From a virus: 40,900 nucleotides of DNA. The notes beneath the pieces were generated by a model, which worked only from the letters and a program-made list of their open reading frames with translations, did not search any database and had not been told where the DNA came from. Position numbers and translations under genes: made by a program. This document shows, one piece after another, positions 76-37,939 of the stretch; the first letter of the stretch is position 1; each line of letters starts with the position of its first letter. The DNA lies in IMG/VR virus record IMGVR_UViG_3300011258_000874, positions 1 through 40,900 of that record. One strand, written 5' to 3'.

Positions 76-468
76 ATGAAGAGAGTAATCGGATTAATCG
101 CGTTAATGGGTTTAACAGCCTGTGGGAACGCAAGTTTTCAAGCAGTAAAGTACACGTGTTCTATTGATGGACCACAGATCGTATGTCCTGATGGAACGTC
201 AGCTGATCTACCAGAAGATGGTAACGATGGCGTTGATGGTGTTAACGGAATTGACGGACAAGATGGAACACAGGTTAAGATCATCGATCCTTGTGGTGAC
301 GGTCCTGGTGTTGACGAGGTTGTTATGGTGTTCGGTGATGGAACAGTCCTGGCTTGGTACCTTAACGTAGGTTTCAGTGTATTACAGGAAGGTGTTAGAT
401 ACCAGACCACAGATAGTCAGAAGTGTCAGTTCAGCGTTGTTGCTGGTGAGGTAATTGATGCCAACTAA
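76..468 (+). CDS. Exported lipoprotein with a short collagen-like Gly-X-X stretch
   Basis: The 130-residue product starts with a lipoprotein signal: basic MKR, a hydrophobic core, and lipobox LTAC with the lipidated cysteine at residue 16. It should be anchored to the inner or outer membrane of a Gram-negative host. Residues 49-66 are six Gly-X-X triplets (GND GVD GVN GID GQD GTQ), and four further cysteines (28, 37 and two later) could form disulfides. A strong AAGGAGG ribosome binding site precedes the ATG. It is the first gene after the promoter at 23-52 and overlaps the next gene. Possible roles are modification of the infected cell surface, superinfection exclusion or an outer-membrane lysis function. 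None is proven, and the collagen-like part is too short to say it forms a triple helix. Confidence 0.85.
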   Translation: MKRVIGLIALMGLTACGNASFQAVKYTCSIDGPQIVCPDGTSADLPEDGNDGVDGVNGIDGQDGTQVKIIDPCGDGPGVDEVVMVFGDGTVLAWYLNVGFSVLQEGVRYQTTDSQKCQFSVVAGEVIDAN

Positions 469-3279: not shown

Positions 3280-3563
3280 GACTAACCCTTGAGCAAGAAT
3301 ATAAACAATGGTTAATGAACTATGAGTTACTGTTGGTGGACATGAAATCTGCTTATTACTTTAAAAACAAGAAGGCTATAGACAGACTAGGTAAAAGGAT
3401 ATTGACGACTCAGGTACAGATAGCTATATGCGCACGTAAGTTAGAAGAAAAACGTCGCACCAACGCCAACAACGCCGTCCGTCCGGCCATAGACAGAAAC
3501 GTAAAGATCCGAAAAGACTCTACGGTGAGCCTCGATCGTATAAGCTGGTTGTGGAGAAAATAG
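3276..3563 (+). CDS. Basic helical protein, last gene of the accessory operon (95 aa)
   Basis: The ATG overlaps the upstream TGA. Residues 1-60 are a convincing helical, Lys/Arg-rich domain. The last 40 residues (from about 3441) lie antisense to the end of the convergent gene at 3441-3830 and look less constrained, being Arg- and Asn-rich. Either two genuine genes share 123 bases tail to tail, or this gene has run on past an older stop codon. No family was recognised. Confidence 0.6.
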   Translation: MRLTLEQEYKQWLMNYELLLVDMKSAYYFKNKKAIDRLGKRILTTQVQIAICARKLEEKRRTNANNAVRPAIDRNVKIRKDSTVSLDRISWLWRK

Positions 3564-3830
3564 GTCTGTCTTAACGGAGATACCCCAATCCTTCTTAACG
3601 GGGATAGACTCCTTACGTTTAGCAACCTGTTTCTTCTTCTCATCCTTGGTGACGTGACGTTCTGTCACTACGGAACCATCAGGGTTCTGTGTTATAACTT
3701 CTTTTATAACGGTCTTTATCCTGTCCTTGGTAACGACCTTCGTTTCGATAGTATGTTTCTGATTAAAGTATGTACCAAGCCCCGCTCCGATTGCTAGAAC
3801 AATAACGTATGAACTAATCTTTTTTAGCAT
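3441..3830 (-). CDS. Membrane-anchored periplasmic protein, spanin-like
   Basis: The 129-residue product has one N-terminal membrane helix (about residues 5-22, ISSYVIVLAIGAGLGTYF) with basic residues before it. A charged, probably coiled region follows (about 30-80, KVVTKDRIKTVIKEV), then a beta-like C-terminus ending GVGATFFF. This is the layout of inner-membrane spanins and of related phage envelope proteins. It is the last gene of the minus-strand cassette with the amidase, which fits a role in disrupting the outer membrane at lysis. No partner o-spanin is evident beside or inside it; the lipoprotein at 76-468 is a remote candidate. Its start overlaps the nuclease gene by 17 bases, and its 3' end overlaps the plus-strand gene ending at 3563. 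Confidence 0.6.
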   Translation of the reverse strand: MLKKISSYVIVLAIGAGLGTYFNQKHTIETKVVTKDRIKTVIKEVITQNPDGSVVTERHVTKDEKKKQVAKRKESIPVKKDWGISVKTDLFSPQPAYTIEAHRRVFSDLYVSVYGRTDGVVGVGATFFF

Positions 3831-4173
3831 TTAAGTATACCTCATATATTTCTAGGAATTTGTCCAATGGCATAGACATTTGTGCATCTTCGTGATTCTT
3901 TTTAAAAACAATAAACGGAGTAGACCCATCAGGACAATTCTTCCGAGCCTGATCAATAGTAGGCCATATAGAGAAGCGCTCAACATTCTTACACTCAATA
4001 GACATGGGAAATTGCTTACGAGCCGCGCTAGAGAACAGTACATCCTCTCCTCCGGCTCCCATGCTTGTCGATCTGATATCATCCTTAGTAAGTCCATGAC
4101 TAACCTCCAGAAGTTTTTCACAAACCTCTTGTTGTAATCGCCTACCTTTTGCCTTAGCACTACTCGTCTTCAT
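3814..4173 (-). CDS. PD-(D/E)XK nuclease, Holliday-junction-resolvase-like
   Basis: The 119-residue protein has the layout of small PD-(D/E)XK nucleases. There is a basic N-terminal helix (KAKGRRLQQEVCEKL), the aspartate of motif II in GGEDVLF (Asp44), and the E-x-K motif in SIECKN (Glu60, Lys62), followed by an alpha/beta end. Such proteins act on branched DNA, or trim packaged DNA in concert with terminase. The start is supported by AGGAG five bases before ATG 4173. It is odd that it lies within the lysis cassette rather than among the replication genes, although cutting of host DNA or packaging intermediates late in infection would explain it. The substrate is not known. Confidence 0.75.
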   Translation of the reverse strand: MKTSSAKAKGRRLQQEVCEKLLEVSHGLTKDDIRSTSMGAGGEDVLFSSAARKQFPMSIECKNVERFSIWPTIDQARKNCPDGSTPFIVFKKNHEDAQMSMPLDKFLEIYEVYLNAKKD

Positions 4174-4181
4174 CTTAACTC

Positions 4182-4859
4182 CTAGTTAAATAATGGACAG
4201 TCAGAAACCTTGCGTTCAAATGAACCGAAGAACGACTTAACCTTAACTGTCTTCATTGTATCCATTAATCTGTTGGAACATCTTACCGTAGATATAACAT
4301 CAAGCGTGTTTTCTTTTATGTTGTCAGAACCATAAATCCACCATTCGTCTTTTACTAGTTTCTTGTATTTCTTAAGTGTGATACCCACCCTATTAGAGTT
4401 CGTCTGTTCCATACCGCGAACAATTCTTTTCCAAAGCTTAAGTTGTGTCTCAACCTCACCATCTTCAAACTGACCACGAAAAGATCCCTTAGCTCTATGA
4501 AACATTGTCAGAGCATTCTCTGTTCCGTGTCTTTTACCGGGTAAAGCCTCAACAATAGCAGACGCCATACTAGCAGCATATATAGTAACAGTCTCAAGAT
4601 CTCGAATAGTCTTAGCAAACTCGATAAAACGTAACCCATCATAAACACTACCACCACCAGAGTTAATAACTAAGTAAATCTTTTTCTTAGAACTTCTTCT
4701 GTCTCTACTTCTTTTAAATAAACATGATTTAAGTTTAAACATACTTGCGGAATTTACGGGTCCGTTAAGTGAACAATGGTTAGTTGTTGTTAACATGATA
4801 TCGTCAGCATTAGCAATTTGCAAACCGCAAATCATTAGAATTGTTAGTAGTATCTTCAT
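4182..4859 (-). CDS. Exported ClpP-like serine protease
   Basis: The N-terminus MKILLTILMICGLQIANA is a Sec signal peptide with probable cleavage after residue 18. The mature part shows the ClpP/crotonase fold signature: INSGGGSVYDGL (66-75), the nucleophile region AASMAS (95-100, Ser97), MFHRA with the catalytic histidine (His121), and a likely third member at Asp171 in KDEWWIYGSDNIKENTLDVI. At 225 residues it matches ClpP-like and phage head-protease lengths, but it would act in the periplasm. It lacks the second domain of SppA. Its ATG overlaps the amidase stop (TAATG), so the two are translationally coupled, suggesting a shared role in lysis or envelope remodelling. Several cysteines fit an oxidising compartment. 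The substrate is unknown, and activity in the absence of a Clp ATPase remains to be shown. Confidence 0.8.
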   Translation of the reverse strand: MKILLTILMICGLQIANADDIMLTTTNHCSLNGPVNSASMFKLKSCLFKRSRDRRSSKKKIYLVINSGGGSVYDGLRFIEFAKTIRDLETVTIYAASMASAIVEALPGKRHGTENALTMFHRAKGSFRGQFEDGEVETQLKLWKRIVRGMEQTNSNRVGITLKKYKKLVKDEWWIYGSDNIKENTLDVISTVRCSNRLMDTMKTVKVKSFFGSFERKVSDCPLFN

Positions 4860-5284
4860 TACCTTACCTTTGGTTTGGGTTGTACAAAAATTAGTTCCGC
4901 TCTAAGTCGGTCCATATCTAAATTAGGGCAGGTCTTTGAAGTTTTAACAGCCTCATTGTGACCCAATACGTTTTCAATAGGTACCCCATATTTCCCCATA
5001 AGGAAGTGGATCATAGCTATTAAAGAGCTCTCTTGTCTAGGATCTATGTTATTAACACCAACCCAGACTATACCAATACTCGTTGAATTAACACCACGGG
5101 CGTGAGCGCCAGGGATTCGGTCAGGACGACCTTTCTCAATCTCGCCATTACGTCTAACAACATAATGATATCCATTATCCGACCAACCACGATCTAGATG
5201 CCAACGCTTAATTGTGTTAGCCCCTATGTCCATATGGTCAGGAGATGCGGTACAATGTACTACTATCTGTTTAATTTTACGCAA
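4859..5284 (-). CDS. N-acetylmuramoyl-L-alanine amidase (T7-lysozyme-type endolysin)
   Basis: This 141-residue protein is an Amidase_2 enzyme that cuts the amide bond between MurNAc and L-Ala in peptidoglycan. Expected zinc ligands are His10 (VVHCTAS), His109 (GHNE) and Cys119 (KTCPN). Lys117 sits two residues before the cysteine as in T7 lysozyme, and Tyr39 falls in GYHYVVRRNG. The start is a TTG at 5284 behind GGGAGG at ideal spacing; no ATG precedes the first zinc ligand. There is no signal peptide or SAR anchor, so release probably needs a holin, for which the gene at 15043 is a candidate. Some T7-type amidases also inhibit a phage RNA polymerase, but no such polymerase is seen here. It is first in the cassette, read leftward from the divergent region at 5285-5373. 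Confidence 0.93.
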   Translation of the reverse strand: MRKIKQIVVHCTASPDHMDIGANTIKRWHLDRGWSDNGYHYVVRRNGEIEKGRPDRIPGAHARGVNSTSIGIVWVGVNNIDPRQESSLIAMIHFLMGKYGVPIENVLGHNEAVKTSKTCPNLDMDRLRAELIFVQPKPKVR

Positions 5285-6981: not shown

Positions 6982-8517
6982 ATGAAGACAAAAAAACCTT
7001 TAGAAATGCTTATTCCAGACATAATGCTCGCTTTTGAGCGTTACCAGGGACAGCTACAGTTTGACTTTGAGTTATACCAGATGCATGAAGGGCAGATCCG
7101 TAAGAAGGTTGAAGAGTCTTTAAAATCGGAAATAATCTCGTATTCGGCATACAAAAGGGCAATACAACGTATCCCAAGCCTGAACATCCCAAAGAAAGTC
7201 ACAGAGAAACTATCTAAAGTATACGCAGAAGCTCCAATGAGGTTTTCAAAGAAAGACCAACAGATCATGGAAGACTTTGCTAATAGAATGGGTCTTAACT
7301 CCGTTTTAAACCATGCTAACAAAATGGCTAACCTAACAAAACGTTGTGCTCTAGAGATATATCAATCTGAAGGAACACAAAAGGTTCGTGTACTTAACGC
7401 CCATCAATTCTTTGTCTATTCTGACAGCCCAACCGATCCAAACAAACCCACCGTATTCTGTAAGCTTCTTGGAAGAGAAGAAAAGTTCATTGAACAGACG
7501 GTATCAGTAAACGGAACACGTAAAAGCACACAAGACCAGGTAACATTGGTTGATATCCTCGCTTTATACTCAGAAGACCAGATATTGATCGTTGATTCTT
7601 CCGGAGCAGTAAGAGAAGACAAGATGTTAGAGATGGGATTTAAAAGTACGAAAAATCCATTCGGAACTATACCTTTTGTATACGTAAACAAGTCAATGAC
7701 CGAGTTAATGCCGTATCCTAATCAAACAGCGTATGATATGGGTATTCTAATCCCGAAATTACTTACAGATCTAAACTACTCTGCACAATTCCTAAGTCAC
7801 TCTCTTATATATACAGTTAACACAGATATCGAAGGCGCTGAGATTAATCCCGACGGAGTTATTAACCTTGGTGACGGAAACGCTACTGACGGTATCCCAT
7901 CTATCGGAACAATTGATCCTAAGACAGACATTGACGGTGTTTTAAAGCTTATTGAGTTTGAACTCGGTATGTATCTAACAACTGAAGGTATGAAAACTGG
8001 TTCTGTCGGTCAAATGGAAGGATCTAGCTCAGCCTCAGGTATATCTAAGATAATTGACGAATCCGATGCTACAGAAACTAGAAAAGCACAAACAGAGTTA
8101 TTCCGTTGGGTTGAATCTAAGTTCTGGAAAAAATTCACACAGATGCAGGCAATCTGGGCAAAGAATAATGTTGTTGAGAAGAAGGAAGTATTCGCCGCCG
8201 ATTTTAGCGAGTCATTCTCGGTTAAGTTTGCGGAGATCAAGCCTATTGAATCAGAAAAAGACAAATACGATAAAATGAAGGTTGCTAGAGACCTAAAGCT
8301 AATCACAAAACGTCAAGCACTAAAAGAGTTATACCCAAGTCTTCCTACAGAACAATTAGACAAACGTTTAGAAGAGCTAGAAGAAGAATTAACAAAAGAA
8401 AAGAAAGAGATGATGTCAATGGGATTAACTCCTGGTGCATCACAACTTGACCGTCAACAACAAGGTGTTTCAGACCAAAAGCTAGTAGAGAAGCAAGATG
8501 GAACCAAACCAGAGTAG
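6982..8517 (+). CDS. Portal protein
   Basis: The 511-residue protein follows the large terminase and precedes the minor head proteins, the standard portal position. It has long helical segments at both ends, a central beta-rich wing (VRVLNAHQFFVYSDSP, TIPFVYVNKS), and the region GSVGQMEGSSSASGISKIIDES, typical of SPP1/HK97-type portals. The C-terminus is a Lys/Glu-rich helix with Gln-rich tail. Twelve copies should form the DNA channel at one capsid vertex. ATG 6982 follows a weak AAGGA. Confidence 0.88.
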   Translation: MKTKKPLEMLIPDIMLAFERYQGQLQFDFELYQMHEGQIRKKVEESLKSEIISYSAYKRAIQRIPSLNIPKKVTEKLSKVYAEAPMRFSKKDQQIMEDFANRMGLNSVLNHANKMANLTKRCALEIYQSEGTQKVRVLNAHQFFVYSDSPTDPNKPTVFCKLLGREEKFIEQTVSVNGTRKSTQDQVTLVDILALYSEDQILIVDSSGAVREDKMLEMGFKSTKNPFGTIPFVYVNKSMTELMPYPNQTAYDMGILIPKLLTDLNYSAQFLSHSLIYTVNTDIEGAEINPDGVINLGDGNATDGIPSIGTIDPKTDIDGVLKLIEFELGMYLTTEGMKTGSVGQMEGSSSASGISKIIDESDATETRKAQTELFRWVESKFWKKFTQMQAIWAKNNVVEKKEVFAADFSESFSVKFAEIKPIESEKDKYDKMKVARDLKLITKRQALKELYPSLPTEQLDKRLEELEEELTKEKKEMMSMGLTPGASQLDRQQQGVSDQKLVEKQDGTKPE

Positions 8518-8896
8518 AATAATTAACATACCAAGACAGTATAAACCATCCACTAGACAAAAAATAGCCGATGATATACTAAGTCGTATAAAAGAGAGAA
8601 CATCTCTTGGTTTAAGCGTGGCCAATAGCCCGTTCCCTGGTTACAGTCTAAGTTATGATAAGACTGGGATAGTAAATCTACTTGAGTCAGGAGATATGTT
8701 ATCTTCGTTAAAGGTTTTATCACATGGTCCTGGATTTGTACGAATAGGGTTCACTAGTTCTGAAGCAAACGATAAGGCAGCTTATATACAAAAACCTACT
8801 GGTCAAAAAGCCGGTAAACAACCAAGAAGAGAGTTCGTTGGTATATCACAGCCGGACTTGAATACGATATTAAAAAGGTACCCACTTGACGTTTAA
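8498..8896 (+). CDS. Minor head or connector protein
   Basis: The 132-residue protein overlaps the portal gene by 20 bases. Its C-terminal half contains GQKAGKQPRREFVGIS, resembling the conserved RxFLGLS-like stretch of phage virion-morphogenesis proteins related to Mu gpG. A head-completion or tail-connector role is likely. The family match is by eye from one motif, so the exact function is open. Confidence 0.55.
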   Translation: MEPNQSRIINIPRQYKPSTRQKIADDILSRIKERTSLGLSVANSPFPGYSLSYDKTGIVNLLESGDMLSSLKVLSHGPGFVRIGFTSSEANDKAAYIQKPTGQKAGKQPRREFVGISQPDLNTILKRYPLDV

Positions 8897-9353
8897 AGAG
8901 CTAGAAAAAAAGTTAGCTAAGTTAGTTGACAACATTGGAAACAGAAGTCAGATGCAAGATGTTGCAGACGAAGCAACAAAGATTGTTAAGACTAGAACAA
9001 AACAGGGTAAAGGTGTTGACAAGAATGGTGGATCAACACAGAAGTTAAGACAGTTAAAGACATCTACAATAAAGAAACGATCCCAGTTAAAAAGAGCAGG
9101 TAAACTAAGTGATGAAACAACACCTTCAAAATCAAACCTGACACAAAAAGGTGAGATGATAAATTCCGTCCAGGGACAAGGTCAAAAAAACCTTGCTACA
9201 GTCAGTTTAAAAGGACGTAAAAACCAGTCTAAAGCCGAACACCAGGCCGATGTTGGTAGAAAATTCATGAACCTAGCGAAGAAAGAGATTTCAGACCTAG
9301 CGAATATAATAGAAGATGATATAAAAAAAGACATAAAAAAACAAGGCTTGTAG
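8886..9353 (+). CDS. Basic minor structural protein
   Basis: This 155-residue, strongly basic, helical protein (repeated Lys/Gln/Thr segments, C-terminal KKEISDLANIIEDDIKKDIKKQ) most likely starts at TTG 8886 behind AAAAAGG, overlapping the upstream gene by 11 bases; no ATG is available near the N-terminus. Its size, charge and position resemble HK97 gp10-like or virion-morphogenesis proteins placed between portal and scaffold. That comparison is an inference. Confidence 0.6.
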   Translation: MTFKELEKKLAKLVDNIGNRSQMQDVADEATKIVKTRTKQGKGVDKNGGSTQKLRQLKTSTIKKRSQLKRAGKLSDETTPSKSNLTQKGEMINSVQGQGQKNLATVSLKGRKNQSKAEHQADVGRKFMNLAKKEISDLANIIEDDIKKDIKKQGL

Positions 9354-9365
9354 CCAGGAGGAAAT

Positions 9366-9956
9366 ATGTCACAAGAAAACAACGACAGTGTCGTAACGCC
9401 CGAGGAAGTTCCAAAGGAAACCAAAGCAGAAGTAGTTTCGAGAAAAGCCTATGAAGAAGTCACTCGCGACATGCATAAAAACAAGCAGAAAGCTAAAGAA
9501 TTGGAAATGGCTCTCAACGAGACCCAAGCCCAGCTCAAGGCGCAAGAAGAAGCCAAGATGCATGAACAACAGCAGTACAAAGAGCTATTTGAGAAACGCG
9601 ATGCCGAATTAGAGCAGGCTAGGCAAGCCGCCCAACAAGAACGTAGTAAGTTTACTAGGTCCGTAAAGATGGCAGCCTTAAAGCAAGAACTTGGTGGATC
9701 TATTAAAGATCAGTACCTTAGTTTTGCTAACCTTGATGCAATAGCTGTAAACGATGATGGAACGATTGATTCTGAGGCCTTACGTAATGTGGCGAATGAC
9801 TTTAGAACTGAGCACGGTCAATTGATCCCAACCGACACGTCAGCAAACGTAACAGGTCATGCTCCTAGTACAGGCGAACCCGCTAAGCCTTTAGAACTTA
9901 GTCAAATGACGAAGGAACAACTATTGGCTAGAGCAAAACAACTTAAATCTAAATAG
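9366..9956 (+). CDS. Capsid scaffolding protein
   Basis: The 196-residue protein lies directly before the major capsid gene. Residues about 25-105 are a long, charged coiled coil (KNKQKAKELEMALNETQAQ onward, rich in Glu, Lys, Gln and Ala). A small C-terminal part with Lys-rich helix TKEQLLARAKQLKSK follows, the usual capsid-binding element. Such proteins fill the prohead and leave before or during packaging. AGGAGG precedes ATG 9366. No capsid maturation protease is encoded in the head block, so how the scaffold leaves is unclear. Confidence 0.85.
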   Translation: MSQENNDSVVTPEEVPKETKAEVVSRKAYEEVTRDMHKNKQKAKELEMALNETQAQLKAQEEAKMHEQQQYKELFEKRDAELEQARQAAQQERSKFTRSVKMAALKQELGGSIKDQYLSFANLDAIAVNDDGTIDSEALRNVANDFRTEHGQLIPTDTSANVTGHAPSTGEPAKPLELSQMTKEQLLARAKQLKSK

Positions 9957-9967
9957 GAGATTAAATT

Positions 9968-10831
9968 ATGTCATTTACTAGTGCTGCACATACTGGTGCA
10001 ACTGAAATGGAACTTATTGTTAATCAGCTTGTTCAAACTGAGCTTTTGGAAAACACTGTTATCCTTAACTCTGTTACTGATCATTCTGATAAAATTGTAG
10101 ACGGTATTAAATCGTTAGAAATCATGCGTTTTGAAGCAGACGCTACTGCCGGTTCTGGTCGCCTTGGTGATCCAGCTGATATGAACCAAGATGGTACAAC
10201 GCCTGCCCCTTTTCAAACTGCTGTTCTTGCGACTGACCGCATTGACCTTAACAAACACAAAATCCTGCCTTACAGAGTACAGGACACTGTTGCTATGCAA
10301 TCACGTTCTAACCTTTCTGCTGAGCTAGCTTCTAAAGCTGGAAAAGAATTTGCTATTTACATGGACAAAGAAATTCGTGATGTATTAAGAACTCTTACTG
10401 CAAACATCGTTATGTCTGGTCCCGGTGCCACAATGTCTCTTGCAGACATTACAGAAGCTCGTAAGCAATTAAACGACGCTAACGTACCACAATCTGATCG
10501 TATTCTTCTTATCTCAACTAAGCAAGAAAAAGCTATGCTTAACATCGAAAACTTCATTCACGCTGACAAGTATGGAGCCAGAACTGCTCTTCTTAACGGT
10601 GAGATTGGTCAAGTTTTTGGTTTCCGTGTTCTTGTTTCTAACTTGGTTGATGAAGATGAGTCTTTTGCTTACCATAGAGAAGCTGTTGGTTACGCTATCC
10701 AGAAAAATGTCGACTTCGAAAGCGATCGTCCTAGTGTTGCTTTACGTGTAACTGATTACTCGTATGCTGCTACTTGGGGTTGTACTTTGATGTACGATGG
10801 TAAAAAAGGTGTTACTTTTAGCGCTGTTTAA
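9968..10831 (+). CDS. Major capsid protein
   Basis: The 287-residue protein follows the scaffold and is followed by a hairpin, as expected for the most abundant product. The N-arm (ATEMELIVNQLVQTELLENTV), the E-loop-like acidic region with RIDLNKHKILPYRVQD, the spine helix region (LSAELASKAGKEFAIYMDKEI) and the A-domain end (DYSYAATWGCTLMYDGKKGV) fit an HK97-fold coat protein of the P22/N4-like coat group. Codon choice looks more uniform (many CTT, GCT, ACT) than in the neighbours, which is common in highly expressed genes. AGGAG precedes ATG 9968. Confidence 0.88.
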   Translation: MSFTSAAHTGATEMELIVNQLVQTELLENTVILNSVTDHSDKIVDGIKSLEIMRFEADATAGSGRLGDPADMNQDGTTPAPFQTAVLATDRIDLNKHKILPYRVQDTVAMQSRSNLSAELASKAGKEFAIYMDKEIRDVLRTLTANIVMSGPGATMSLADITEARKQLNDANVPQSDRILLISTKQEKAMLNIENFIHADKYGARTALLNGEIGQVFGFRVLVSNLVDEDESFAYHREAVGYAIQKNVDFESDRPSVALRVTDYSYAATWGCTLMYDGKKGVTFSAV

Positions 10832-10841
10832 TTTTTACTTG

Positions 10842-10861
10842 GCGGGACTTTCGGGTCCCGC
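10842..10861 (+). terminator. Hairpin after the major capsid gene
   Basis: GCGGGAC and GTCCCGC form a perfect 7-bp GC-rich stem around the loop TTTCGG, starting 11 bases after the capsid stop and followed at a short distance by ATTTTT. It is probably a partial terminator or mRNA-stabilising end that raises capsid output relative to downstream genes. Confidence 0.7.
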
Positions 10862-10884
10862 TCTCATAATTTTTATGGAGAACA

Positions 10885-11085
10885 ATGGACGGAATCAGTA
10901 TCACACTTAGTTTAATGGCAGACACACAAGAGCTTTTATCAGCTTTAACGGTCCAGGCTCAAGTAAACTTTGGAATGAAACTACACTTTAGAGAGTTCTC
11001 ACAACTTAAAAACGGTAAATTCGTATGCTGGTATGAAGTACCCTATTCTATATATGTGGAGAAATTAGGCAATGGCGAAGGTTAA
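10885..11085 (+). CDS. Small structural-block protein (66 aa)
   Basis: ATG 10885 follows ATGGAGAAC. The 66-residue product has no membrane segment and no recognised family. Its place between capsid and decoration-like genes suggests a small virion or assembly protein. Its 3' end overlaps the next gene by 14 bases. Confidence 0.65.
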   Translation: MDGISITLSLMADTQELLSALTVQAQVNFGMKLHFREFSQLKNGKFVCWYEVPYSIYVEKLGNGEG

Positions 11086-12073: not shown

Positions 12074-12234
12074 TGCCGATAGTATATGTTGTAACCCTTA
12101 ATAATGGTAAACGAGAGATCGTAGAACTTGACACTGACGTCCAAGTCGGAGACGACGAGGACATAGAAGGTGGCGGTGCTATGGTCGTTTACCAAACTGA
12201 TGACTGTGTAGACGGAGGAGACGCGAATGGCTAA
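12073..12234 (+). CDS. Small acidic protein (53 aa)
   Basis: The frame runs from ATG 12073, sharing one base with the previous TAA, to TAA 12234, eight bases into the fibre gene. It fills an otherwise empty 150-base gap. The product has a beta-like start (MPIVYVVTLNNGKREIVELD), then an acidic middle (VGDDEDIEGGG). Coupled initiation through TAATG is likely, as no ribosome binding site is evident. No family was recognised. Confidence 0.6.
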   Translation: MPIVYVVTLNNGKREIVELDTDVQVGDDEDIEGGGAMVVYQTDDCVDGGDANG

Positions 12235-13948
12235 TAAAATTCAATGGCGACGCGATACTGCGGCTAACTGGACTTCGGTTAATCCCGTCTTATCTGACGG
12301 CATGCCTGGCTACGAAAAAGACACAGGTAAACTTAAGATAGGGGACGGCGTAACTGCGTGGAATTTACTACCATACAGTTTTGAGGGTGTAACCGATCAC
12401 GGGGGACTTAGCGGTCTTTCTGACGATGACCATTTACAATATCTTAATGAAACTAGACACGATGCATTACCTGCCGATAATCCACACAACGTAAATAAAT
12501 CACAGGTCGGCCTTGGTAGTGTACCTAACATAGACGCGACCGACAGATTAAACCACACGGGAACGCAGTTAGCTAATACTATTTCAGATTTTGCAACACA
12601 AGTGCAGCTAGATGAAACCACTACGTCAATATCACTTATTGGTAATAACCTAGCCTTTGTTGACGAAGACGGCGCGACTACGAATATTGACTTATCTCTT
12701 TATTTAGATGATACGAACCTAGCAAGGATTGTTAACGGAACTCTAAACCCGGCAACAGGGATTGTGACTTTTACTAGAGACGATTCAACTACGTTTACTA
12801 TTGACATGAGCTCGCTGCTAGACGATCAAAATGCATCCGAAGTTCCCGTTACACCTATTGGAAACCTATCGTCAACTGACGTCCAGGCTGCATTAATGGA
12901 GCTACAGATAGATATCGACAATGTTAATACGGCACAGGGTGTTCAAGATGGTAACATATCTAACAACGCGTCAGGTATTAGTACAAACTCTGGCAACATT
13001 TTATCAAACTCTGGGAATATAACAACAAATCAAACTAACATATCTAACTTACAAGCAAGTCAAGCTACGCAGGATTCTGCAATAGCATTAAACACTGCTA
13101 AGGTTAGCGCTACAGGATCTATTGATACACATTCAGATGTTGATACAACCACTGTCGCACCTATTGTCGGATCACAGTTAGAATGGAATGGAACAAACTG
13201 GGTACCTAAATCTATTAACAACGGATTTACTATTTTTCCAATATGGGCCGAAGAAAGTGGAGGCCTATCTAACTCCAACGCACAGTGGTCTTTCGGTAAC
13301 GGTGCTACTGGTTTTATCGGTATACCAATGGGAATTGACTGTGAACTATTTGCAATATCGGTTAACGCAGACACTCCAGGAACTTCTGTAAGCATAAACA
13401 TAAAAAGAGACGCAGTAAATGTTGCAACACCAAATTTTACAGCAAATAATCAAGTAATACCAGTAACGGCAATACCGTATACAACTGGTCAATTGTTAAA
13501 CTTTGAAACACAGACTGAAGTAGGTGCATGGTCAGATGTAAGAGTATGTGCCTGGATGCGCGTGAAATCTACCGCATTGTTTCCAACTCCCGACAGAAGT
13601 GTTGTAAATAACTCCGGCATAGCATTTACGTCAACAGGATTTGCAACAATACCAGGAATGTCAACAACTGTTACAATTAATGATACCGGAACTATAGATG
13701 GAACATTTACATACTCAGCGGCAAGGAGTGGTGGTACAAACTCAGAAGTACAATTCCGGGTTGTAATAAATGGCAACAACGGACAAACGTTTAATGACAC
13801 ACTATCTACATTTAATGACACAGGTGCTGTGTCACATAATGTTAACGCATTGCCTGCTGGTACGTATACAGTCTTGGTTCAAGCTGCGGCATCTCAACCT
13901 ATAACAATTGCGGCATGTCAGTTATCAGCAGTCGGAGTGGAATCATAA
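12227..13948 (+). CDS. Fibre protein (head or side fibre)
   Basis: The 573-residue protein opens with a module common at the start of phage fibres and tropism determinants (IQWRRDTAANWTSVNPVLSDG, then KIGDGVTAWNLLPYS, residues about 4-50). The DDHLQYLNETRHD repeat type follows (about 65-80). Residues about 230-290 are a Asn/Ser/Thr/Gln-rich coiled region (NISNNASGISTNSGNI), then comes the module GSIDTHSDVDTTTV..NWVP that recurs in the fibre at 22236. The C-terminal 230 residues form beta-rich, possibly Ig- or lectin-like domains. Because it lies among head genes rather than beside the tail hub, it may be a head fibre. GGAGGAGAC precedes ATG 12227. Confidence 0.75.
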   Translation: MANKIQWRRDTAANWTSVNPVLSDGMPGYEKDTGKLKIGDGVTAWNLLPYSFEGVTDHGGLSGLSDDDHLQYLNETRHDALPADNPHNVNKSQVGLGSVPNIDATDRLNHTGTQLANTISDFATQVQLDETTTSISLIGNNLAFVDEDGATTNIDLSLYLDDTNLARIVNGTLNPATGIVTFTRDDSTTFTIDMSSLLDDQNASEVPVTPIGNLSSTDVQAALMELQIDIDNVNTAQGVQDGNISNNASGISTNSGNILSNSGNITTNQTNISNLQASQATQDSAIALNTAKVSATGSIDTHSDVDTTTVAPIVGSQLEWNGTNWVPKSINNGFTIFPIWAEESGGLSNSNAQWSFGNGATGFIGIPMGIDCELFAISVNADTPGTSVSINIKRDAVNVATPNFTANNQVIPVTAIPYTTGQLLNFETQTEVGAWSDVRVCAWMRVKSTALFPTPDRSVVNNSGIAFTSTGFATIPGMSTTVTINDTGTIDGTFTYSAARSGGTNSEVQFRVVINGNNGQTFNDTLSTFNDTGAVSHNVNALPAGTYTVLVQAAASQPITIAACQLSAVGVES

Positions 13949-14790
13949 TGGAACATTTATTTAATAAAGAATCATTTAATGTAAACCACATTAACGTAGA
14001 GTTATCCGAAACTTTAAAAGTAAAAATATCCGGATTTAAGCATACCGGAAAAATACTTCACGTATATGTGTCTCAAGTATTAACAGACCAAGAATACCAG
14101 GAACTAAAAACTTCGGTTGAAAATCATAATGGGGCCTCTGATTCTAACCTTAGGATTTACAGAGTATTACCCACGGACCAAAATCCTTTAATAGCTGACT
14201 TTTCAATATTGGGATTCCGTAAAGTTTCTCCTAGTTACGAGAGAGGTAGGAAAACTCGGTCTTTATACAAATGTACGGAAAATGACGAAGTTATAGTTGA
14301 AAAAATCTTTGAAGATGTCAGAGATGAAAATGGCACACTTTCAGGATTACAGATTACATTTAACTGGTACAATGAAGACGGCGAAATCGGCCTAACTAAA
14401 ACACAACAGGTTAAATCCTTTAATAAGTACCAGGCGGAAACACAAGAACGTCAGCGTCGTGAAAGACAGATAGACTATCTTGTTGCCGGAGCCAAAGGTA
14501 CGCCCATAGAAGCTAATATTAATATGGTATTTGATTTCTTATATGACGAAGTTATGTTATACAAAGAAAAGGCTAATCCTCAACCAATGGTAGATAAACT
14601 AAACTCTATACAATACATTGCTAACGCGTCAACACAACAGGAATTAGAAAACAATGGTATGTGGTACATATTAAACGCCGTAGCCTTACCTAGAGTAGAT
14701 GATCCTAATAAGTATATATACGTTATTCAATCCATTAAATATCAGATAGGTGTTATGACTTTAGCTGAAATAGAGGCCGAAAATGTCTAA
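13948..14790 (+). CDS. Fibre-associated or unknown structural protein (280 aa)
   Basis: ATG 13948 shares one base with the fibre stop; an upstream in-frame start inside the fibre gene is unlikely. Residues 1-150 are beta-rich. A charged helix follows at about 155-185 (KSFNKYQAETQERQRRERQ), then a helical C-terminus. It may be a fibre base, chaperone or capsid-associated protein. I do not recognise a family. Confidence 0.6.
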   Translation: MEHLFNKESFNVNHINVELSETLKVKISGFKHTGKILHVYVSQVLTDQEYQELKTSVENHNGASDSNLRIYRVLPTDQNPLIADFSILGFRKVSPSYERGRKTRSLYKCTENDEVIVEKIFEDVRDENGTLSGLQITFNWYNEDGEIGLTKTQQVKSFNKYQAETQERQRRERQIDYLVAGAKGTPIEANINMVFDFLYDEVMLYKEKANPQPMVDKLNSIQYIANASTQQELENNGMWYILNAVALPRVDDPNKYIYVIQSIKYQIGVMTLAEIEAENV

Positions 14791-15040
14791 GAGGTATTAC
14801 TGTGGTCCGTACTGGGTTCCTGAATGGGGACAAAAGATATTATCAAAATGGTTTAACGCCAGTTGTAAAATTCACGACATGGACTATGAATCAAAAAAAT
14901 ATACAAGACAAGATGCTGATATAAGATTTCTAACCAACTGTATAAAACAGTCCGAAGGAAAGTTCTTTCGTGAAGTATGTGCATGTGTTTACTTTATCTT
15001 AATTCGTATAGGCGGTAAACTAAGTTGGGATAAGGACTGA
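14783..15040 (+). CDS. Phospholipase A2-like protein
   Basis: The 85-residue protein carries the core signature of secreted-type phospholipases A2. There is a CGPY segment near the N-terminus (7-10) that could be part of a calcium loop, and CKIHDMDY (28-35) with the His31-Asp32 dyad. A second helix follows with DADIRFLTNC (44-53), matching the D...C pattern after the active site. A hydrophobic end (CACVYFILIRIGG, about 66-78) could bind membrane. Such domains hydrolyse the sn-2 ester of phospholipids; parvoviruses use one in the capsid for entry. Here it overlaps the upstream gene and sits just before a holin, so either virion entry or membrane disruption at lysis is possible. The calcium loop is not fully canonical, so activity needs proof. 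Confidence 0.65.
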   Translation: MSKRYYCGPYWVPEWGQKILSKWFNASCKIHDMDYESKKYTRQDADIRFLTNCIKQSEGKFFREVCACVYFILIRIGGKLSWDKD

Positions 15041-15042
15041 TT

Positions 15043-15432
15043 ATGAAGGAATGGCTAATCAAAGGATTGATAGTTTTATGTGCAGTATTCGCACCAATAA
15101 AAGCAATGTTGATTACATGTGGTGTACTAATAGTCGCAGATATGTTAACAGGAATCATGGCAGCAAAGAAACGCAAAGAAGAAATACAGTCAGCAGAAAT
15201 GCGCAGGTCCGTATCTAAATTCGTTGTATACCAGATAGCCATTATGTCCGCATTTTTACTTGAAACATATATGCTTGATAATCTAGTACCGGTATCTAAA
15301 GTTGTTGCCGGAGTAATAGGAATGGTTGAATTTAAGTCTATTCTAGAAAACGCCAGCACAATTGCCGGTAAAGACCTGTTAAAGCTTGTTATCGAAAAGC
15401 TCGGGTCTAAGAACGCGAAGGGATTAAAATAA
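15043..15432 (+). CDS. Holin-like membrane protein
   Basis: The 129-residue protein has hydrophobic helices at about 6-20, 22-40, 60-78 and possibly 86-100, with a charged stretch AAKKRKEEIQSAEMRRS (about 40-55) and a basic C-terminus. This matches the phage holin 4-type family (VLIVADMLTGIMAAKKRKE is characteristic). It would form holes or depolarise the inner membrane so that the amidase reaches peptidoglycan. It is encoded within the virion block, ten genes from the endolysin, next to the phospholipase-like gene. ATG 15043 follows the preceding stop by two bases. Confidence 0.75.
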   Translation: MKEWLIKGLIVLCAVFAPIKAMLITCGVLIVADMLTGIMAAKKRKEEIQSAEMRRSVSKFVVYQIAIMSAFLLETYMLDNLVPVSKVVAGVIGMVEFKSILENASTIAGKDLLKLVIEKLGSKNAKGLK

Positions 15433-36739: not shown

Positions 36740-37364
36740 TTGTTTCCTCACATGTATTACACTTAGTCTTTAGTTTATCTTTTGTTCTTTTATCAGAGCT
36801 ATACTCATTCTTAAGTCTTGATTTGTTACACTCTGTACATCTTTTCTTTTGGTTTTTCATATCTAAACGTATCATTCTAATAAACTTTTTAACACGGAAG
36901 TAGTTACGTAGTAGGTTCTTTGCTGTGTCAATGTCATAATCCAGGGCTAATTCCTCACAACTCTGTTTTAACATTTCTATTGCTGCATCCTCGTACGTTG
37001 ATGTGTTAAGTTTGTCCTCCCATGGCTCGGCTTCTTCTTTATAGTCTGCTTCTGATACATGAAACAGTGTTGCTATCTTACCTGACTTCTTTATAATGTT
37101 TAGTACGTCGCGGTTAGTATTGTTGTTATTACGTGTTGCCCATTGCTTTTGTTTCTTAGTCTTAAGTATATTGTTCTTGTTGTTCTTACGATCAAAGTTG
37201 TTTGCGTATGCCTCGTGCATAAATCTCTTCATGTAGGCGTATTCGCTCATTGTAGATCCATCGGGTAGCTTCACTAGCTTAGTCTTAGACAGCTTGTGCC
37301 AATAGTCTATGTCATCAAATTCTTGTCGTACACCTAAAGGTATGTTCTCTTTTTTGCTACTCAT
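36729..37364 (-). CDS. Helical protein with C-terminal zinc ribbon (211 aa)
   Basis: ATG 37364 overlaps the ClpP-like stop by one base. The N-terminal and middle parts are helical and charged, including a Lys/Asn-rich stretch (RKNNKNNILKTKKQKQ). The C-terminus has C-x2-C...C-x2-C (CTECNKS ... CNTCEET), a pattern found after many phage nucleases and DNA-binding proteins. No catalytic motif is visible. A DNA-related role is a guess. Confidence 0.7.
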   Translation of the reverse strand: MSSKKENIPLGVRQEFDDIDYWHKLSKTKLVKLPDGSTMSEYAYMKRFMHEAYANNFDRKNNKNNILKTKKQKQWATRNNNNTNRDVLNIIKKSGKIATLFHVSEADYKEEAEPWEDKLNTSTYEDAAIEMLKQSCEELALDYDIDTAKNLLRNYFRVKKFIRMIRLDMKNQKKRCTECNKSRLKNEYSSDKRTKDKLKTKCNTCEETNVS

Positions 37365-37939
37365 TAGAACAACTCATCTATGATGTTAAGCTCTAAGCAC
37401 TTCTCTGCTGTGATGTAGAAATCCTTACCCACACCTTTGGTCATCCAATAATCTACTGATACACCTGTTAACTCAAACATAAGCTCGGACCACTTTACAG
37501 ATAAGCTCTGTGACTGTTTTACTTCGTGTTGAATATCGCTATGACGACCCTCAACTGAGTAACTCGATTCGTGGTGCATGAACTCTGCTAAAGTTGACAT
37601 GTATCTTTTATCTCCTGCAGCTAATATCGCCGTAGAAGCACTCATTATCTTACCATAACCCTTCGTTATCAACTGACACTTGGACTCTCGCATACGTCCT
37701 ATAATTCCAAGCGCGGCATAAACATCGCCACCATAGCTGTTGATCTTAATGGTTATAGCTTTACGTCCGTCGGACTCAAGGGCTGTCATCGCCGTATCAA
37801 ACCAATCGAACGTATGCTCTTCAATGTCCTCAGTCAACCGTATGATACGATTCTGGAGGTCAATGCCTTTGTTGAACGCGTACTCTAGGTTAAGAGCGAG
37901 TTCGTCCAGGGCAACTTTCTTTTGTACGGCAGTAGACAT
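37364..37939 (-). CDS. Cytoplasmic ClpP-like serine protease
   Basis: The 191-residue protein keeps the ClpP signature: KINSYGGDVYAALGIIGRM (66-83), KGYGKIMSASTAILAAGD with likely nucleophile Ser100 (Ser102 is an alternative), AEFMHHESS (His122 or His123), and Asp173 in GKDFYITAEKCLELNIIDEL. There is no signal peptide. In many phages such proteins are prohead proteases placed between portal and capsid genes; here the gene lies in the early leftward operon and none is found in the head block. It may process host proteins or act as a displaced maturation protease. It is only distantly alike in sequence to the exported ClpP-like protein at 4182. Confidence 0.85.
   Translation of the reverse strand: MSTAVQKKVALDELALNLEYAFNKGIDLQNRIIRLTEDIEEHTFDWFDTAMTALESDGRKAITIKINSYGGDVYAALGIIGRMRESKCQLITKGYGKIMSASTAILAAGDKRYMSTLAEFMHHESSYSVEGRHSDIQHEVKQSQSLSVKWSELMFELTGVSVDYWMTKGVGKDFYITAEKCLELNIIDELF

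Follow-up and report, generated by a model that had tools for sequence, protein, structure and literature searches.

The window analyzed here, a complete virus record of 40,900 bases, carries on its minus strand an open reading frame (ORF) for a 225-residue ClpP-like protein, which lies between the gene for an Amidase_2 endolysin and a nuclease-like ORF (Table 1). The original prediction had placed a ClpP-like product here and named no strand; the ORF is real and is read from the minus strand, the plus-strand reading of 4182–4859 being ruled out by stops throughout. Residues 53–181 of the product match the Pfam family CLP_protease (E = 1.3e-14), and a chance ORF is unlikely, because the entire protein is conserved among relatives of 42% to 61% identity.

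The amidase and protease genes overlap as had been claimed, with the TAA stop of the former and the ATG of the latter sharing one base (TAATG). This arrangement, which it had been proposed to seek in other phages, is kept in all 5 closely related phages found: in each phage with a 62% to 99% identical amidase, the protease gene starts at −4 to +2 nt from the amidase stop. The nuclease and spanin-like protein previously assigned to the cassette were likewise recovered, as a nuclease-like ORF (phrog_244) and a spanin-like ORF with one transmembrane (TM) segment, both downstream of the protease. These 2 ORFs are common to the 4 contigs that extend far enough, out of the 5 amidase-related phages, and the spanin-like family is kept in L003, L011, and L012 and, distantly, in L059. 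With a nuclease inside, the cassette is not purely lytic.

Beside the holin gene, an 85-aa ORF (14783–15040, plus strand) contains the stretch CKIHDMDY, which is reminiscent of the active-site motif of phospholipase A2; the ORF matches Pfam Phospholip_A2_4 at only E = 0.099 and phrog_6098, of unknown function, at 8e-11. Another ORF of the window (76–468, plus strand) has collagen-like Gly-x-x repeats after a lipoprotein-like signal. L004 contains a similar ORF (10510–10932) and also encodes, several genes from the protease cassette, a lipoprotein-like ORF (12094–12534, minus strand) matching PhageMetallopep (PF18894, E = 6.8e-6).

Table 1. Coordinates of the predicted protease, its residues of interest, and other genes of the window.
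Feature	Coordinates	Strand	Remarks
ClpP-like serine protease, predicted to be exported	4182–4859	−	225 aa, ATG at 4859; CLP_protease match and predicted ClpP fold
Predicted Sec signal peptide, codons 1–18	4806–4859	−	Cleavage expected after ...ANA
Ser97 codon, predicted catalytic nucleophile	4569–4571	−	Invariant (81/81); aligns with E. coli ClpP Ser97
His121 codon, predicted catalytic base	4497–4499	−	Invariant (81/81); aligns with E. coli ClpP His122
Glu172 codon, at the position of the catalytic Asp171 of ClpP	4344–4346	−	E in 79/81 rows
Cys194 codon	4278–4280	−	Invariant (81/81); putative disulfide with Cys221
Cys221 codon	4197–4199	−	Present in 80/80 rows reaching that position
Amidase_2 endolysin	4859–5284	−	141 aa, TTG start, no signal peptide; PF01510 E = 4e-18, phrog_822 E = 1.4e-39
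Nuclease-like ORF, Holliday-junction-resolvase type	3814–4173	−	phrog_244 E = 7.5e-16; Pfam PDDEXK_15 under its cut-off
Spanin-like ORF, single N-terminal TM, charged	3441–3830	−	No Pfam/PHROG family match
Holin (PF05105)	15043–15432	+	E = 7.8e-13; away from the amidase–protease cassette
Second, cytosolic-type ClpP-like protein	37364–37939	−	191 aa, no signal peptide

Fold, active site, and export signal

An AlphaFold2 monomer model, computed with 50 family members in the alignment, had a pLDDT of 94.6 and a pTM of 0.88. The top Foldseek matches of the product in the PDB were all ClpP structures (TM-score by target of approximately 0.8, rmsd of approximately 2 Å), and structure prediction, which had been suggested as a check on the 225-residue product, thus returned a ClpP fold. 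In BFVD, the best full-length structural match was another uncultured phage protein; the second-best full-length match was a protein of the giant virus Fadolivirus (23% identity, TM-score by query of 0.77). The profile alignment starts only at about ClpP residue 24, and the axial loop and first helix that serve ATPase docking are therefore missing; in the model, the predicted mature protein begins at residue 19, right before the first strand. A long helix (residues 135–158) takes the place of the ClpP handle helix and may correspond to the handle through which ClpP rings stack.

The triad originally proposed was Ser97, His121, and Asp171. The serine and the histidine are borne out, both being invariant in the family alignment, and the acid is off by one residue. 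A profile alignment with Staphylococcus aureus ClpP and a multiple alignment including E. coli ClpP both put the catalytic Asp column of ClpP at Glu172 (E in 65/66), so that the triad expected from these alignments is Ser97–His121–Glu172. Asp171 (codon 4347–4349) was rejected as the catalytic acid on the same 2 alignments: its counterpart in E. coli ClpP is Arg170, and among the 81 family rows this position holds N in 46 and D in 29.

Asp187 is also invariant across the 81 rows of the family alignment. Cys194 and Cys221 probably form a disulfide, and the mature domains of 61 of 65 members contain 2 or 4 cysteines; the invariant pair and these counts fit an oxidizing compartment. A second pair, Cys29/Cys46, whose members are both present or both absent, was found only in the group of the window.

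The protease begins with MKILLTILMICGLQIANA followed by DD, which has the form of a classical Sec signal peptide with the cut expected before DD. To signal peptides and membrane anchors we applied a crude heuristic with controls (hydrophobic core, positive N-region, uncharged stretch, and cleavage) rather than SignalP, and the sample comprised 65 non-redundant family members with an intact N-terminus. The test was passed by 62 of these 65, compared with 25 of 710 neighbor genes (≥80 aa) and none of the 30 second ClpP genes located close to the protease. Family members had an advantage in that their best start codon was picked; with any start allowed, the controls rose from 25 to 30 of 710, no more. 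Among the 3 failing members, 2 have a hydrophobic start without positive charge and 1 has a long basic lead and then a hydrophobic stretch. In one subfamily, an N-terminal membrane anchor with a linker of approximately 45 to 60 residues replaces the cleavable signal, and the L091 member has a lipoprotein-like signal. The Sec signal peptide of the original prediction is thus supported across the family by a heuristic with controls. From the family-wide signal or anchor, the invariant cysteine pair, the mostly even cysteine counts, the ClpP fold, and the missing ATPase-docking segment, we infer with good support that the ClpP-like protease is exported, and the window product is very probably an exported ClpP-type protease belonging to a coherent phage family.

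A phage family and its genomic settings

A single-sequence scan of IMG/VR yielded 9 relatives. With an alignment as the query, at least 146 contigs encoding relatives were recovered, of which 80 were retained for analysis; the protein aligns over its full length with relatives of 30% to 61% identity. Among isolated phage and plasmid records, we found no relative with ≥80% coverage, only ordinary ClpP-like proteins. A first genome scan for bacterial relatives found none, and a second one returned 4 MAG contigs with relatives (L088–L091) and phage-like neighbors, plus an ordinary ClpP (L092). A bacterial origin of the family was rejected on these matches, all of which are phage-like MAG contigs or ordinary ClpP. 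Matches to the window terminase come from many proteobacterial phages and from some Gram-positive ones, with an identity of only about 31%. The family is apparently phage-only, large, and undescribed; a literature search on exported, periplasmic, or phage ClpP, with most subscription journals outside its reach, gave nothing relevant, and the family may still be described.

All 63 members tested match CLP_protease (PF00574) and no other Pfam family, and 60 of them match PHROG families labeled “head maturation protease,” with the match confined to the catalytic core in those members that were inspected. Neither Pfam nor PHROG yielded a dedicated family for the exported clade with these 63 members. 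Given that nearly all members carry export signals, their present database naming as capsid-maturation enzymes is probably wrong.

In a maximum likelihood tree of 94 sequences, the exported proteins grouped in a single clade (100/100) with a long stem; the second ClpPs encoded nearby in the same phages formed a separate clade (99/94), and 2 bacterial ClpPs also fell apart from the exported proteins. Two or three ClpP-like genes are present in 27 of the 43 records with the exported family, the window included, and the second copy is often only a few genes off. This count is a lower bound, since the records are fragmentary.

In most relatives, the gene adjoins packaging and head genes (terminase, portal) or a prohead protease, not lysis genes. 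The terminase cluster is at +2 in 23 loci and the prohead protease at +2 in 20 loci, with the exported gene upstream of both; the TM-anchored subfamily has a separate prohead protease (phrog_1028, E = 4.5e-39). Other relatives have replication or recombination-type neighbors, and Amidase_2, the sole endolysin type covered by the systematic search, occurs in only 4 of 42 records. Membrane proteins were not enriched near the gene: they made up 23/350 at a distance of up to 3 genes and 43/522 beyond it. The window protease is on the strand opposite to the terminase–portal–coat genes; relatives adjoin the terminase, upstream of it.

Two distant lineages (L059 and L038) place the protease gene near other lysis-like genes; the row in L059 consists of a holin/anti-holin-like ORF (weak match), an exported metallopeptidase-like protein, the protease, and a spanin-like protein.

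Several individual genes in these surroundings deserve mention. The L059 metallopeptidase-like ORF (7390–7929, plus strand), directly before the protease, is predicted to be membrane-anchored or exported (HEYGHYLGAEHD) and matches Reprolysin_5 under the cut-off (E = 2.6e-5). Four genes past the protease, the 85-kb phage L038 encodes an SLT transglycosylase with a signal peptide (10288–10842, plus strand), an apparent exported endolysin. In L066, a subtilase with a signal-like N-terminus (Peptidase_S8, E = 5e-21; 8771–9490, plus strand) lies directly downstream of the exported ClpP-like gene.

Possible roles of the putatively exported protease

Co-translation with the amidase endolysin and the spanin-like protein makes a role late in infection most likely. 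In the mechanism we propose, the Sec system would export a ClpP-fold serine peptidase to the periplasm, where it would be active without a Clp ATPase, perhaps assembled into rings; for nearly all family members, secretion or an anchor with the protein on the periplasmic side is predicted. In the window phage, the protease would be co-translated with the spanin-like protein and the amidase endolysin, itself cytosolic, would wait in the periplasm, and would cut exposed, flexible, or peptide-sized envelope targets, thereby contributing to envelope failure after release of the amidase by the holin. The location of the holin gene elsewhere counts against a lysis role. That the window protein acts at or with lysis is, in our estimate, slightly short of an even prospect. 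A lysis protease is plausible for the lineage of the window and not as a general function, because most relatives lie beside packaging/head or recombination genes without Amidase_2. Thus, of the periplasmic lysis protease originally proposed, export stands as a strong expectation for the family, and the lysis part is kept as plausible for the window's lineage, not as the rule. We advance the full proposal tentatively, giving it a clearly lesser chance: tailed phages of diderms would possess an ancient exported ClpP family (Ser–His–Glu, disulfide), often beside a cytosolic ClpP, that cuts host envelope proteins and, in the lineage of the window, serves as a fourth lysis component with endolysin, holin, and spanin.

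Universal export without universal lysis linkage would also suit a protease that remodels the host envelope during infection, cutting a receptor, an envelope defense protein, or incoming peptides or toxins, and thus serving superinfection exclusion or counter-defense. The position of the gene within packaging or recombination operons in most relatives favors such a role, and the additional ClpP-like gene of many records would fit paired proteolysis in 2 compartments. However, no known exclusion or defense gene was recognized nearby, and the translational coupling to the endolysin, kept in 5 related phages, points to late expression; we regard envelope remodeling as rather unlikely. The enzyme might also be a clean-up peptidase resembling SppA, with a housekeeping function for phage proteins that are produced in bulk; its substrates would be signal peptides after cleavage, exported phage proteins that have misfolded, or small peptides of the envelope. 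ClpP-type chambers that lack an ATPase do cleave peptides, the N-terminal docking segment is lost here, and other exported or membrane phage proteases adjoin the gene (the metallopeptidase-like protein of L059 and the subtilase of L066). Yet peptidases of the S49/NfeD type use a Ser–Lys dyad, here replaced by Ser–His–Glu, and hosts already have such enzymes; we consider this role improbable.

A capsid-maturation protease held at the inner face of the membrane by its hydrophobic N-terminal segment would account for the best PHROG label of 60 of the 63 members and for the many genes adjoining terminase and portal. This reading is opposed by the cleavable-type signals with AxA sites and by the invariant cysteine pair, by the separate prohead protease of the TM-anchored subfamily, and by the separate second ClpP of many records. 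The window, moreover, has a P22-like coat and a scaffold-like ORF, and the P22-like capsid type needs no protease. We therefore judge capsid maturation very improbable.

Relation to known systems

Phage lysis cassettes consist of holin, endolysin, and spanins (PMC6139136). The window group resembles them in the co-translation of the protease with an amidase endolysin and in the presence of a spanin-like ORF downstream, and differs in that the holin is encoded elsewhere and a nuclease lies inside the cassette. In the literature searched, with few subscription journals within reach, no protease was found as a phage lysis component, and the family offers a directly testable candidate for the means by which phages might weaken those envelope layers that lie beyond the reach of endolysin and holin.

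The head maturation proteases of phages (phrog_94, phrog_133, and NF045542) provide the best sequence labels, and they too belong to tailed phages and are often near terminase and portal. However, the matches are confined to the catalytic core, scores against NF045542 and NF045540 (49 and 55 bits) are far under the curated cut-offs of 120 and 475, the phage family is predicted to be exported, and some relatives have a separate prohead protease. Head maturation proteases are encoded within the head block (portal–protease–coat), whereas the window protease is outside it. If our reading is true, an annotation error is corrected, as libraries now call these genes “head maturation protease.”

SppA (S49) and NfeD/1510-N are proteases of the ClpP class that are active outside the cytoplasm and independent of an ATPase, the working mode also predicted for the phage family. 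Unlike them, none of the 63 members has a Pfam match to these families, and the Ser–Lys dyad is absent, with His121 invariant at the ClpP His position.

ClpP itself (S14, PF00574) is the textbook ATP-dependent cytosolic protease. The phage protein shares with it the fold, the oxyanion-loop glycines, the positions of Ser and His, and a handle-type long helix, but has a signal peptide, Glu for the catalytic Asp, and no N-terminal axial loop or first helix. Its family further adds a C-terminal beta-hairpin with the invariant cysteine pair and forms a clade of its own. Whereas ClpP works in the cytosol with a Clp ATPase, the phage protein is predicted, by the heuristic with controls, to be exported; if true, this would give ClpP a new biological use, in which the fold has been moved outside the cytoplasm, the docking segment dropped, and the catalytic acid swapped.
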